From Rhizobium halophilum (lineage in GTDB: Bacteria > Pseudomonadota > Alphaproteobacteria > Rhizobiales > Rhizobiaceae): a stretch of 64,000 nucleotides of DNA. Below, piece by piece: positions 8,369 to 62,720 of the stretch (the stretch's first letter is position 1; the number at the start of each line of letters is the position of its first letter). The notes under the pieces are model-generated. The model did no database searches. It saw nothing but the letters and a program-made list of their open reading frames with translations, and was not told the origin of the DNA. A program made the position numbers and the translations under genes. The stretch lies in contig NZ_JAKJHS010000001.1 in NCBI RefSeq assembly GCF_021648825.1, positions 496,001 to 560,000 of the forward strand, given 5' to 3'.

Positions 8369-9265
8369 ATGGTGGACGCAAAGATGTTGAACAAAATGAG
8401 CTCTGCGCCTGGCTTCATCGCGGCGCTGGACCAGAGCGGGGGGTCAACACCTAAGGCATTGAGCCTCTACGGCGTTTCCGAATCCGACTACCAGAGTGAG
8501 GAGGAGATGTTCCGCCTGATGCACGCGATGCGCGTCCGCATCATGAGCGCGCCGGCCTTCACGGGCGACAAGGTCATTGGCGCCATCTTGTTCGAGCGTA
8601 CTATGGACGGTGATGTCGAGGGACAGGAAGTACCCTCCTACCTGTGGGAAAAGCGCGGCGTCGTGCCGTTCCTCAAGGTCGACAAGGGGCTGGAGGCCGA
8701 AGCAAGCGGCGTCCAGTTGATGAAGCCCATGCCCGAGCTGAATGCTCTCCTGACCCGCGGGCGCGAGAAGGGAATCTTCGGCACCAAGATGCGTTCGGTC
8801 ATCGCTCATGCTGACAAGGATGGGATCGAGGCCGTTGTAAAGCAGCAATTCGAGGTGGGTCGCCAGATCATTGGCCAGGGCCTCGTGCCGATCATCGAAC
8901 CTGAGGTCTCCATCAAGAGCCCCACCAAGCAGGAAGCCGAAGTCATTCTGCGTGATGCAATTGCCGAGCAGCTCGACAAGCTTCCGGCAGGCGAGAATGT
9001 CATGCTGAAACTGACGATCCCGACCGTTGCGGATTTCTATGCTCCATTGGGGGCCCACCAGTCCGTCATCCGCGTCGTTGCACTTTCCGGCGGCTACAGC
9101 ACGGCCGATGCCTGCGAGAAGCTCAGCCACAACCGCGGCATGATTGCCAGCTTCTCGCGCGCGCTGACGGAAAAGCTGCGCGTTTCGATGAGCGACGACG
9201 AGTTCAACACGAGCCTCGCGAAAACAATCGATCAGATCTATGCTGCCAGCGTGAACAAGGCCTGA
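8369..9265 (+). CDS. fbaB: Class I fructose-bisphosphate aldolase
   Basis: A 298-residue protein of the short class I aldolase family (Schiff-base type, metal independent). It cleaves fructose-1,6-bisphosphate into glyceraldehyde-3-phosphate and dihydroxyacetone phosphate. Recognisable segments are AALDQSGGSTPKAL near 20-33, ILFERTMDG near 74, PFLKVDKGL near 99 and IIEPEVSI near 177. The ATG at 8369 has AGGAGTGGG just upstream. It closes the tkt-gap-pgk-fbaB cluster but is separated from pgk by 218 nt with a palindrome, so it is probably regulated on its own. A terminator follows. Confidence 0.92.
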   Translation: MVDAKMLNKMSSAPGFIAALDQSGGSTPKALSLYGVSESDYQSEEEMFRLMHAMRVRIMSAPAFTGDKVIGAILFERTMDGDVEGQEVPSYLWEKRGVVPFLKVDKGLEAEASGVQLMKPMPELNALLTRGREKGIFGTKMRSVIAHADKDGIEAVVKQQFEVGRQIIGQGLVPIIEPEVSIKSPTKQEAEVILRDAIAEQLDKLPAGENVMLKLTIPTVADFYAPLGAHQSVIRVVALSGGYSTADACEKLSHNRGMIASFSRALTEKLRVSMSDDEFNTSLAKTIDQIYAASVNKA

Positions 9266-9730: not shown

Positions 9731-11005
9731 ATGCAACGTAACCTGCTGCCGGTCCTGGCGCTTCTGACGAGCACGCTCTTCCTGTTTCTCGGCAACGGAC
9801 TACAGGGCCTTCTCCTGCCCGTTCGCGGATCGTTTGAAGGTTACTCCAACGAAATCCTCGGACTGATCGGCACCACCTGGGCGACCGGCTTCGTCGTCGG
9901 CTGCTTCGTGGCGCCGAATCTTGTCCGCCGCATCGGCCATGTGCGCGCCTTTGCGGGTTTTGGCGCGCTGATTTGCCTCAACGTCCTGCTGACCGGGCTC
10001 CTGGTCGATCAGACCGCTTGGCTGATCCTGCGCGCGGTGACCGGCTTCTGCACCGCCGGCACCTCCATGATTATCGAAAGCTGGTTGAACGAGAGAGCCA
10101 CGAATGAAAGTCGCGGTGCTATCTTCTCCTTCTACATATCGATCACGCTGTTCGGCGTCGTCGGCGGCCAGATGATGGTACCCTTCGCCGACATTTCCAC
10201 GCCGACGCTGTTCATGATCTGCGGCATTCTCTACTGTTTCGCCATTATTCCGACTGCTGTGTCGAAGGCAGCCTCGCCGCAACCGCTGAAACGGGTTCGA
10301 CTCGACCTGAAAGCACTCTATCGGAATTCTCCGGTCTCCTTCGTGGCCATCCTCCTCGTCGGCACCGCCAACGGCGCCTATGGTACCTTGGTGGCGGTGT
10401 TCGGGGCGCGCGCCGGGCTGCCGGAAGACAGCATCGCGATCATGGTCAGCGTCACCATCCTCGCGGGCGCCATTGCTCAGTTTCCTGCAGGCCGCCTTTC
10501 GGATCGGATGGACCGGCGGTTTGTCTTGGCGGCGCTTGCGGGGCTGGGAGCAATCGCTGGTCTCGGATTGAGCCTTTTTGAACCCGCAAACGTCTATGTC
10601 ATTCTGGTGCTTGTGGCGGTTTACGGTGCGGCTTCGAATGCCCTTTATCCCATTGCCGTCGCGCATGCCAACGATCACGCCGCTCCGGAAGACTTCGTCA
10701 AGGTATCAGGGGGGCTTCTGCTCATCTACGGCGTGGGAACCATCATCGGCCCCACCCTCGGCGGCCCTGTCATGACGTGGCTCGGTCCCTATGCCCTGTT
10801 CGCTGTCACGGCACTAAGCCATGTCCTCGTGACCGCCTATGCCATCTTCCGAAGCCGCCGGCGTGCCCCGGTGCCGGTAGAAGACCGCGACAGCTATGCC
10901 GGTTCTCCGGCACTGGCTCCCTCCTTGACCACGCCTGAAAGCTTGCTGCTTAATCCTCGTGCCACGGAAGGCACCGAGGATGGAGAGGAAAGGCAGCCGA
11001 CATGA
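9731..11005 (+). CDS. Major facilitator superfamily transporter, YcaD-like
   Basis: 424 residues with twelve predicted inner-membrane helices in two six-helix halves, separated by a cytoplasmic loop near 180-200 (SPQPLKRVRLDLKAL). The second half carries the MFS-type GRLSDRMDRR turn near 256. The segment RAVTGFCTAGTSMIIESWLNE near 99 matches the YcaD group. The last 60 residues are a hydrophilic tail. The substrate is not deducible. The stop overlaps the start of the DUF1192 gene by four bases (ATGA), so the two are translationally coupled. Confidence 0.85.
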   Translation: MQRNLLPVLALLTSTLFLFLGNGLQGLLLPVRGSFEGYSNEILGLIGTTWATGFVVGCFVAPNLVRRIGHVRAFAGFGALICLNVLLTGLLVDQTAWLILRAVTGFCTAGTSMIIESWLNERATNESRGAIFSFYISITLFGVVGGQMMVPFADISTPTLFMICGILYCFAIIPTAVSKAASPQPLKRVRLDLKALYRNSPVSFVAILLVGTANGAYGTLVAVFGARAGLPEDSIAIMVSVTILAGAIAQFPAGRLSDRMDRRFVLAALAGLGAIAGLGLSLFEPANVYVILVLVAVYGAASNALYPIAVAHANDHAAPEDFVKVSGGLLLIYGVGTIIGPTLGGPVMTWLGPYALFAVTALSHVLVTAYAIFRSRRRAPVPVEDRDSYAGSPALAPSLTTPESLLLNPRATEGTEDGEERQPT

Positions 11006-11196
11006 GCATCGCCGACGACGACAGGCCAAAGAAGCAGGTAAATTCGCACGAGGTCGGCTGCGACCTCAGTTCACTTTCTGTCGAGGACCTGGATCAGCGG
11101 ATCGACCTTCTACAGAACGAGATCACGCGCCTTCAGGCCGACAGGGAGAAGAAATCGGCCGGTCGCAGTGCTGCCGAAAGTCTCTTTCGCCTTTGA
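11002..11196 (+). CDS. DUF1192 family protein
   Basis: A 64-residue cytoplasmic protein beginning MSIADDDRPKKQVNSHEVGC. It is followed by the conserved DUF1192 core LSSLSVEDLDQRIDLLQNEI and a short coiled coil ending in LFRL. It overlaps the transporter stop by ATGA. DUF1192 proteins are small, widespread in Rhizobiales and uncharacterised. The conserved position directly ahead of rcdA invites a cell-cycle link, but nothing in the sequence proves it. Confidence 0.8.
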   Translation: MSIADDDRPKKQVNSHEVGCDLSSLSVEDLDQRIDLLQNEITRLQADREKKSAGRSAAESLFRL

Positions 11197-11233
11197 TGAA
11201 ACGGAAAAGATTAATGGTAAACCAATTCGGACT

Positions 11234-11248
11234 TTAACCGGATCTTAA
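11234..11248 (+). promoter_or_regulatory. CtrA box (TTAA-N7-TTAA), upstream copy
   Basis: TTAACCGGATCTTAA is an exact match to the CtrA consensus TTAA-N7-TTAA. It lies 38 nt after the DUF1192 stop and about 27-40 nt before the predicted start of the sRNA candidate. That is the spacing expected for CtrA activating from the -35 region. Confidence 0.65.
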
Positions 11249-11274
11249 TCATCAAAGCGGAAGATAAGAAACAT

Positions 11275-11373
11275 CCGGGCCTCCCGGACTCAGACGGTTT
11301 CACCACGTGGCGAAGAGGTCTGACTTTCTCCCTGTTTTACCTTGAGAGCCGCTTTCGCGGCTCTTCTTTTTTT
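11275..11373 (+). ncRNA. Candidate CtrA-controlled small RNA
   Basis: A noncoding, terminator-ended stretch with no gene upstream that needs this terminator except DUF1192, about 150 nt away. Hairpin 1 is TCAGAC (11290-11295) with GTCTGA (11318-11323), enclosing CCACGTGG. A single-stranded CTTTCTCCCTG (11324-11334) resembles an anti-Shine-Dalgarno seed. The terminator is AGAGCCGC-TTTC-GCGGCTCT with TCTTTTTTT (11345-11373). This layout of structured 5' hairpin, pyrimidine-rich linker and terminator is typical of trans-acting rhizobial sRNAs. The 5' end is estimated from the CtrA box. I cannot assign it to a named family. It could instead be the processed 3' UTR of DUF1192. Confidence 0.5.
11345..11373 (+). 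terminator. Rho-independent terminator before rcdA
   Basis: An eight-pair stem AGAGCCGC/GCGGCTCT with loop TTTC and a TCTTTTTTT tract. It ends the sRNA candidate and/or the MFS-DUF1192 operon. Confidence 0.88.
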
Positions 11374-11397
11374 CCAGCACCGTCAAAAGTGTGGGTA

Positions 11398-11412
11398 TTA
11401 ACCCTTCCTTAA
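11398..11412 (+). promoter_or_regulatory. CtrA box (TTAA-N7-TTAA) upstream of rcdA
   Basis: TTAACCCTTCCTTAA exactly matches the CtrA consensus. It lies 115 nt upstream of the rcdA start, with CTATAA about 25 nt further on (11434-11439) as a possible -10. In Caulobacter and Sinorhizobium rcdA is reported as a CtrA target, which this site fits. Confidence 0.75.
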
Positions 11413-11526
11413 TAAACGGCTTGCCGATCGGCGCTATAAACCTCATCTTAACTTACGAGAACACGGACGCGGAACTTTCTTTCCCCGTCATCATTGCCCG
11501 AGTGATGCGTTAGCAAGGTGAACTTC

Positions 11527-12039
11527 ATGTCGGAACAGGGACTGAACACAGTCAACTTCGCAGGCCGCGCTGCCGCCTCCTCGCATTTCAAGGCGCTTTA
11601 TGCCGAAGGGATGTCGTTGGTCGAGGAGACTGCAGCCTATTTGGATGGGCCCGGGCGCACTGCCTCGAAGGTTCTGCCTCGGCTCGCGTCGGTTCTCTAC
11701 GCGGCCGAATCCATGAGACTCACGACACGCCTCATGCAGATGGCGTCCTGGCTTCTGCTACAGCGCGCAGTCAACAACGGCGAGATGAGTCGGGATCAGG
11801 TGCTGGTCGAGAAAAACAAGGTGCGTCTGGACGGCTTCAATGTCGACAAGAACGCCCCGGGTTGGCTGGATCTGCCGGAAGGGTTTCGGGACCTTGTTGA
11901 GCGGTCCCTGCGCCTGCAGAATCGTGTCGCTATCCTCGATCGTGAAATCTATCGACCCAAGGACGCTGTGGTCACCCCTGACAACGAGAACGGCGTGCGC
12001 GCCCAGCTTAACCTGCTACAGACGGCCTTCAGCGCCTGA
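11527..12039 (+). CDS. rcdA: RcdA, regulator of CtrA degradation (DUF1465)
   Basis: A 170-residue helical protein of family DUF1465, which includes Caulobacter RcdA. RcdA is an adaptor that, with CpdR (and PopA in Caulobacter), delivers substrates such as the master regulator CtrA to the ClpXP protease. Recognisable segments are SHFKALYAEGMSLVEETAAY near 20 and the RLTTRLMQMASWLLLQRAVN helix near 72. ATG 11527 is preferred because AAGGTGA sits 6 nt upstream. The GTG at 11518 is part of that site and would add three residues. A perfect CtrA box lies upstream, and the partner cpdR begins at the right end of this window. Confidence 0.85.
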   Translation: MSEQGLNTVNFAGRAAASSHFKALYAEGMSLVEETAAYLDGPGRTASKVLPRLASVLYAAESMRLTTRLMQMASWLLLQRAVNNGEMSRDQVLVEKNKVRLDGFNVDKNAPGWLDLPEGFRDLVERSLRLQNRVAILDREIYRPKDAVVTPDNENGVRAQLNLLQTAFSA

Positions 12040-12066
12040 GGCGAGATTAATCCACCTATCGAAAGG

Positions 12067-12088
12067 GCAGGCTTCGGCCTGCTTTTTT
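12067..12088 (+). terminator. Rho-independent terminator after rcdA
   Basis: GCAGGC-TTCG-GCCTGC stem with a UUCG tetraloop followed by TTTTTT, 28 nt after the rcdA stop. Confidence 0.9.
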
Positions 12089-12102
12089 GTTCGCGGACAA
12101 AG

Positions 12103-12133
12103 AAAAAGGCCCGGTCAAGGATCGGGCCTTTTT
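12103..12133. terminator. Bidirectional terminator between rcdA and rpmE
   Basis: AAAAAGGCCCG and CGGGCCTTTTT flank a 9-nt loop. It has a U-tract on either strand, so it serves rpmE on the minus strand and backs up the rcdA terminator. Confidence 0.85.
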
Positions 12134-12155
12134 ATGAAGGGGACGATCGATCGGC

Positions 12156-12377
12156 TTAGAGGCCGAGACCACCAAAACGCTTGTTGAACTTCGAGACGCG
12201 GCCGCCACGGTCCATCAGTTGCTGGTTGCCGCCGGTCCAGGCCGGGTGCGACTTCGGATCGATTTCAAGGTTCATCGTGGCGCCTTCCGAACCCCAGGTG
12301 GAAAAGGTTTCGTATTCGGTACCATCGGTCATGACGACCTTGATCTTGTGGTATTCGGGATGGATATCAGTCTTCAT
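12156..12377 (-). CDS. rpmE: 50S ribosomal protein bL31
   Basis: 73 residues, beginning [20 protein letters not shown]. Component of the large ribosomal subunit. The zinc-binding CxxC pair of C+ L31 proteins is absent, so this is the zinc-independent C- type usual in alphaproteobacteria. The frame is open 12 codons further upstream, but the start at 12377 gives the conserved N-terminus. It converges with rcdA and shares a bidirectional terminator. Confidence 0.95.
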
Positions 12378-12559
12378 GGCCCTATTCCTGCTGTCCGGGT
12401 CCATATGCCGCAATTGCGATCTCGAACCCTCTTCAATAAATGAAAGCCGCAGACCATAAGGCCACGGCTTCCCAATTCGATGCGGAGCCTATACAGGATG
12501 GGCGCCGGGAGCACAAGGCCCGTCGGCCTCAGAAAGAGGCGGGCGAGTAAGAGGGTAAA

Positions 12560-62629: not shown

Positions 62630-62702
62630 ACAGTCTTTGACTGTAATGCCCTCCTTGGGTGTTTCCTCCCTAGACTAGCCGCGCCTCGGCGCGGTTTTTT
62701 TT
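62630..62702 (+). ncRNA. Candidate trans-acting small RNA with anti-Shine-Dalgarno motifs
   Basis: About 73 nt. Hairpin ACAGTC-TTT-GACTGT (62630-62644). A C/U-rich single strand contains CCCTCCTT (62649-62656) and TTTCCTCCC (62662-62670), each complementary to ribosome-binding sites. A terminator CCGCGC-CTCG-GCGCGG with eight T (62679-62702) follows. It lacks any coding potential, and neither flanking gene reads into it on this strand. The paired CCTCC motifs recall the rhizobial alpha-r sRNA families (alpha-r14/NfeR1-like), but the match is from memory and needs a covariance search. Confidence 0.65.
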
Positions 62703-62720
62703 GCCCGCCTTGTCGGCGAC

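Follow-up and report, generated by a model that had tools for sequence, protein, structure and literature searches.

What occupies the interval between the DUF1192 gene and rcdA in Rhizobium halophilum, and is it under the control of CtrA? We analyzed a stretch of 64,000 nucleotides, referred to here as the window, in which an MFS transporter gene, the DUF1192 gene, a candidate small RNA (sRNA), and rcdA follow one another on the plus strand, with rpmE on the opposite strand. The DUF1465 gene is presumably rcdA, in keeping with the function of this domain and with the name given both by the sequence-only reading that preceded this analysis and by papers on the rcdA locus. We think it likely that the candidate is a trans-acting sRNA that is activated by CtrA from its own promoter and exposes an anti-Shine-Dalgarno stretch, CUCCCUGUU. 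The features of the locus are as follows.

9731-11005, plus strand: MFS transporter gene
11002-11196, plus strand: DUF1192 gene (Pfam PF06698, E 1.9e-23), the upstream neighbor, found upstream in distant loci as well
11234-11248, plus strand: TTAA-N7-TTAA box, putative CtrA site in the promoter of the sRNA, from the sequence and its conserved position
11260-11265, plus strand: possible, weak -10 region, with A at 11261 in 99% of 80 aligned rows
11272-11371, plus strand: predicted small RNA of ~100 nt (R1 match of 114.7 bits, fold, conservation), with predicted ends
11274-11288, plus strand: stem-loop 1, from the fold, with two-sided changes in 3 of 6 pairs
11290-11323, plus strand: stem-loop 2 (TCAGAC/GTCTGA), from the fold, with outer pairs kept and one-sided changes only; another hairpin takes its place in RF02356-type members
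11324-11343, plus strand: stretch CTTTCTCCCTGTTTTACCTT, unpaired in the fold, the proposed pairing region; 11328-11343 is invariant in 80 rows
11344-11373, plus strand: intrinsic terminator, stem 11344-11365 and then a T run (sequence, scan, fold, column changes)
11398-11412, plus strand: second TTAA-N7-TTAA box, putative site in the rcdA promoter, without mismatch in 79 of 79 named loci (best 80 of 531)
11527-12039, plus strand: rcdA (DUF1465; Pfam PF07323, E 2.2e-57, scanned from 11533), with the ATG at 11527 read from the sequence

We compared this locus with 80 named loci fetched by RcdA similarity (the best 80 of 531 confirmed, with positions counted from the third codon of rcdA), the closest of which is that of P. 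pelagicum (Pseudorhizobium) at 95% identity; L098 was left out because its contig ends 129 nt upstream of rcdA. Of the 80, 79 have the unit ahead of rcdA, in agreement with the sequence-only reading, which had placed next to rcdA a noncoding unit with a 5' hairpin, an exposed stretch, and a strong terminator. TCAGAC (11290-11295) does pair with GTCTGA (11318-11323) around CCACGTGG, and the terminator, a stem at 11344-11365 with a T run, was both read from the sequence and found by a scan, whose three terminator-like sites compare with 2.0 expected by shuffling. The exposed stretch CTTTCTCCC is likewise present and conserved between the hairpin and the terminator stem, but its invariant part is longer than had been described and spans 11328-11343 (CTCCCTGTTTTACCTT). 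All 79 of 79 named loci (best 80 of 531) share this 16-mer without change, and the same positions are invariant across the 80 aligned rows, which include the window.

The predicted fold has three hairpins and leaves CUUUCUCCCUGUUUUACCUU unpaired; its energy of -38.8 kcal/mol (z -3.99) was reached by 0 of 200 shuffles. Stem-loop 1, absent from the earlier account, is the only one to show two-sided pair changes in close relatives; the number of such pairs was matched by 41 of 500 shuffles and the number of cells by 0 of 500. In these relatives, changes in stem-loop 2 and the terminator are confined to one side of a pair. In a wider alignment, itself fitted to the model, two-sided changes affect 13 of 20 pairs, and 0 of 500 shuffles reached as many. 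A consensus scan of 10500-12500 found no sigma70-type -10/-35 promoter, which fits an activator-dependent promoter and proves nothing. At the level of sequence, conservation in close and distant relatives confirms that this RNA unit is more than a chance arrangement.

We next asked which family this RNA belongs to. An Rfam scan at cut-off gave no match for it, and a permissive scan aligned RF02356 (BjrC1505, "Alphaproteobacterial sRNA") at full length over 11226-11370 with 16.2 bits against a cut-off of 50, so that Rfam misses the window copy; RF00519 (22.5 bits) and SorY (21.8 bits) also fell below their cut-offs. A model built from the window and 46 relatives (R1; 47 sequences) matches the window's own genome once, at 114.7 bits; in two sets of 297 genomes each, it finds the RNA in 229 from the GTDB family and in 55 from the order. 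RF02356 has no match at E 0.001 in the window's own genome and matches 119 of 151 GTDB-family genomes at that threshold, 84 of them over the cut-off, which therefore misses the branch of the window; in the class, it matches 24 of 240 genomes, 11 over the cut-off. Neither model matches any of the family genomes of ≤2.0 Mb among those listed (G064, G065, G103, G130, and G134).

Where both models match, they mark the same places, as at G105:C1 437016-437117 (R1) and 437018-437159 (RF02356, 53.4 bits) or, in the genus of the window, at G027:C7 8444-8547 (R1) and 8446-8589 (RF02356, 34.8 bits), and RF02356 passes its cut-off in 17 of 18 more distant R1 loci scanned. These R1 loci and shared coordinates establish homology to members that pass the cut-off. 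The window RNA shares with BjrC1505 its place upstream of rcdA, the box in the 5' part of the model, a similar stem-loop 1, the CUCCCUGUU stretch, and the terminator type (GAGCCGC/GCGGCUC). It differs in its second hairpin, where TCAGAC/GTCTGA takes the place of the family's GAGUGG...CCACUC, and ahead of the stretch, where CUUU stands instead of UUUGACGC. The hairpins, whose conservation the sequence-only reading had named as a check, are kept in close relatives, and stem-loop 2 is exchanged in RF02356-type members. Since the RNA is homologous to RF02356 but scores below the gathering score of 50 bits (16.2 in the window, 27.2 in the Sinorhizobium meliloti copy) and has another second hairpin, we place it on a diverged branch within the RF02356/BjrC1505 lineage rather than count it as a member by the Rfam rule. 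The earlier interpretation is supported in part and needs correcting here: by this sequence comparison the RNA is not a new family, and RF02356 members occupy the same place relative to rcdA. The ~100-letter RNA gene is ancient, and its comparison with RF02356 leaves us almost certain both that it is real and that the two are homologous.

The weak RF00519 match raises the possibility that the candidate is instead a copy of MmgR (suhB), with which it has in common a CUCCCU stretch before a GC-rich terminator. Its 22.5 bits lie below the gathering score of 41, however, MmgR has another locus and other neighbors, and the box, place, and stem-loop 1 of the candidate follow RF02356; the window moreover contains a separate RF00519 match at 62641-62709 on the plus strand (54.5 bits, above the Rfam cut-off). 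We regard this identity as extremely unlikely. In the RF02356 lineage itself, the Rfam match begins 6 to 7 nt before the box in three loci (L163, L148, and L146), where the model consensus reads UUuA-N7-UUaa. Because the model begins at the conserved box, the 5' part of it probably represents promoter rather than RNA.

Literature searches found no publication for RF02356 as a term or for six short pieces of the RNA sequence or its complement, and BjrC1505 turned up in one paper only, within a list for Herbaspirillum. Expression in Bradyrhizobium was reportedly verified in the paper that first described BjrC1505 (Madhugiri et al. 2012). No link of the family to CtrA was found in these searches, and no sRNA at the rcdA locus was found in the searches and main texts; the RNA may have a numbered entry in supplementary tables. 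For a catalogued sRNA family whose function we did not find in the literature, the present comparison supplies a probable regulator, a consistent locus, and a revised 5' boundary.

The proposed regulator rests on the box upstream of the RNA. The sequence-only reading had reported a perfect CtrA box here, and the box is exact: TTAA at 11234-11237, seven bases, and TTAA at 11245-11248. Only two perfect TTAA-N7-TTAA boxes occur in the window, at 11234 and 11398, and the second, between the terminator and rcdA, was missing from that account. In the interval from 105 to 69 nt ahead of the CTCCCTG anchor, the first box is perfect in 66 of 79 named loci and has at most one mismatch in 78 of them (best 80 of 531), compared with 0 and 0 in two windows of the same width further upstream and 0.22 expected from shuffles. 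Elsewhere in the named loci (best 80 of 531), outside the 700 nt that precede rcdA, a perfect box occurs at 2 of 453,976 positions.

The same arrangement of box and RNA is found in other families and orders. Among 60 distinct, more distant loci it is perfect in 48, has one mismatch in 9, and is worse in 3, against 0, 2, and 58, respectively, in a control window. From this count, 15 of 75 loci were dropped (14 without the anchor by the filter and 1 duplicate); the anchorless loci include L202 and L215, which have a box with one mismatch and a perfect box, respectively, in another survey, as well as L211 and L213. No CTCCCTG is in reach in L181, L197, L198, L211, and L213, and L114, L134, and L204, which show no box, each have two, the first of which was taken as the anchor. 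In 12 distant loci without rcdA within 900 nt (defined as no tblastn match at E 1e-3, which a strongly diverged rcdA might escape), 8 boxes are perfect and 4 have one mismatch. Because the box is kept with the RNA where rcdA was not found nearby, it belongs to the RNA; comparison of sequences thus shows this linkage, along with the RNA unit and its RF02356 homology.

These loci bear on whether the RNA is instead a 5' leader or attenuator of rcdA, transcribed from the box toward rcdA, with the terminator deciding read-through. Such a leader would suit the 79 of 80 named loci (best 80 of 531) in which the unit immediately precedes rcdA and the presence of rcdA in 75 of the 76 loci L111-L186 (R1 matches, some of them repeated), but it leaves aside the second perfect box, which in 79 of 79 loci (best 80 of 531) follows the terminator and precedes rcdA at a variable distance, and the persistence of RNA and box where no rcdA was found nearby. 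We consider a leader quite improbable.

The upstream side of the locus offers another origin, in which the RNA is a 3'-end product of the DUF1192 mRNA, made by read-through and processing, and the box acts elsewhere. DUF1192 ends 38 nt before the first box, neither sequence reading nor the terminator scan found a terminator between the two, and DUF1192 is kept as the upstream neighbor in distant loci where rcdA was not found. Across 18 distant loci, 10 of 10 short upstream ORFs scanned proved to be DUF1192, 8 of them in loci without an rcdA found (the 10 were picked for a DUF1192-like look; L191 looked alike and was left out); no DUF1192-like upstream ORF was seen in L157, L202, L203, L206, L210, L214, and L216. 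The fixed spacing between box and RNA would be unexpected for a processed 3' end, however, and we give this origin little credence.

Relative to the predicted start at 11272, the box runs from -38 to approximately -24, which fits the earlier proposal that it stands at promoter distance from the unit. In Caulobacter, according to excerpts of PMC4287350, the 5' base of the full CtrA site lies near -35 at CtrA-activated starts, and CtrA half sites over the -10 repress. Here, a full TTAA-N7-TTAA motif is predicted near -35, a placement that depends on the predicted start. A real RNA with its own promoter might still be one at which CtrA uses the box mainly as a repressor or for the control of rcdA, as repression from half sites over the -10 (PMC4287350) and the closeness of the two boxes could suggest; but the site is of the full type, is predicted near -35, and is kept in loci without rcdA, and we judge this use of the box unlikely. 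Despite members without a box within one mismatch (L152, L179, and L180; 3 of the 60 distinct distant loci), we hold with high confidence that the sRNA is driven by CtrA through this putative site.

Under CtrA activation, phosphorylated CtrA would bind the box at about -38 to -24, where full sites activate in Caulobacter, and would switch on the RNA while CtrA is active. The product, transcribed from its own promoter with a predicted 5' end near 11272, would be a three-hairpin, terminator-ended RNA of ~100 nt. Through the exposed CUCCCUGUU(UUACC) it would pair with target mRNAs at their purine-rich ribosome-binding regions and lower their translation.

The published CtrA binding evidence concerns the rcdA promoter region as a whole (PMC4433202). 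In S. meliloti, the excerpted text reports that CtrA binds this region, that rcdA expression is unchanged upon CtrA depletion, that rcdA is essential, and that RcdA depletion raises CtrA, and it describes a CtrA depletion strain and CtrA ChIP-seq (PMC4433202). The S. meliloti record CP090106.1 has the same gene order, the RNA at 110.7 bits (R1), and both boxes, at 2464-2478 and 2638-2652 of the locus L288 taken from it. On the rather doubtful reading in which the sRNA pairs with rcdA, discussed below, CtrA at the "rcdA promoter" would partly serve the sRNA, which could account for the unchanged rcdA mRNA upon CtrA depletion. Multiple start sites, with possible CtrA sites, are reported for the rcdA orthologues of three agrobacteria (PMC10469942, in part); one such CtrA site or start, in S. 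meliloti and the agrobacteria, may serve the sRNA. CP090106.1 is a 3.7-Mb record titled pSymB that contains rcdA and rpmE and is chromosome-like.

Few sRNAs have been linked to the CtrA circuit. EcpR1 and GspR of S. meliloti are also sRNAs that act on the cell cycle circuit (PMC4414408 and PMC5928217), but they have loci of their own, divK-pleD/rpmG and SMc03844/SMc03845, which rules them out as the identity of this RNA; in the excerpts, no promoter signature is known to precede the 5' end of GspR. They are the only sRNAs named for the S. meliloti cell cycle in the excerpted text of a 2020 review (PMC7143759). PmaR was rejected as well: it lies on the Agrobacterium circular chromosome between two hypothetical ORFs, and the passages describing it do not mention rcdA. 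CcnA of Caulobacter crescentus is likewise a noncoding RNA with CtrA boxes, presumed to be CtrA activated, but is located at the replication origin, and its authors report no clear detection of a CcnA-like homolog in S. meliloti (PMC8959179, in part).

With regard to function, we lean toward a trans-acting anti-Shine-Dalgarno regulator, a mode that, like the targets, we infer. CUCCCU is complementary to the purines of the Shine-Dalgarno sequence, and such pairing is a common mode of sRNAs. In the window's own genome, AACAGGGAG-N2-12-ATG occurs 9 times, against once for the reversed pattern. Our target search found no target site conserved across lineages. The most recurrent AACAGGGAG site over 18 genomes, among the matches listed, lies before a CarD-family gene; in a survey of 62 fetched loci, 10 of them without a start by tblastn, the site was present in 24 of 41 same-genus loci read and in 0 of 11 from other families, and carD was rejected as a widely conserved target on the latter count.

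Of five genes, rcdA gave the strongest predicted duplex at its start region, with a mean of -14.35 versus -10.73 for shuffled sequences in 79 loci (best 80 of 531; single letters shuffled). Duplexes also exceeded shuffles for rpmE (-11.92 versus -9.39) and somewhat for DUF1192 (-12.14 versus -10.42), which makes the Shine-Dalgarno sequence a confounder; those of the MFS and ABC genes did not. In the closer loci (89 distinct), the rcdA duplex reached -14.28 versus -9.72, and in the remaining 45, among them loci from more distant members of that GTDB family, -13.72 versus -12.50, with the assumed start codon often off. Among 91 distinct rcdA sequences (3 further starts were not located), [AG]CAGGGA occurs in the leader in 45, in the first codons in 10, in both in 0, and in neither in 36. 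This pairing signal is suggestive and confounded by descent, and rcdA is a weak, rather doubtful candidate target that may apply in closer lineages. If the sRNA, which is conserved in many Alphaproteobacteria, did pair with the rcdA start in lineages near the window, it would lower RcdA, the adaptor for CtrA destruction, and CtrA would protect itself via the RNA, a loop that we consider rather doubtful.

Additional observations were made at and around these loci. Between the sRNA end and the rcdA-side box, ~80 to 120 extra bases are present in L032-L042, L044, L072, L081, and L084, mostly Neorhizobium and neighbors. In the genus of the window, a conserved hairpin-like leader (CTCATCCGGGCCTG...CCCGG) precedes the CarD-family gene (L226-L255). 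Finally, the window carries a 6S RNA at 556-713 on the minus strand, above the Rfam cut-off.
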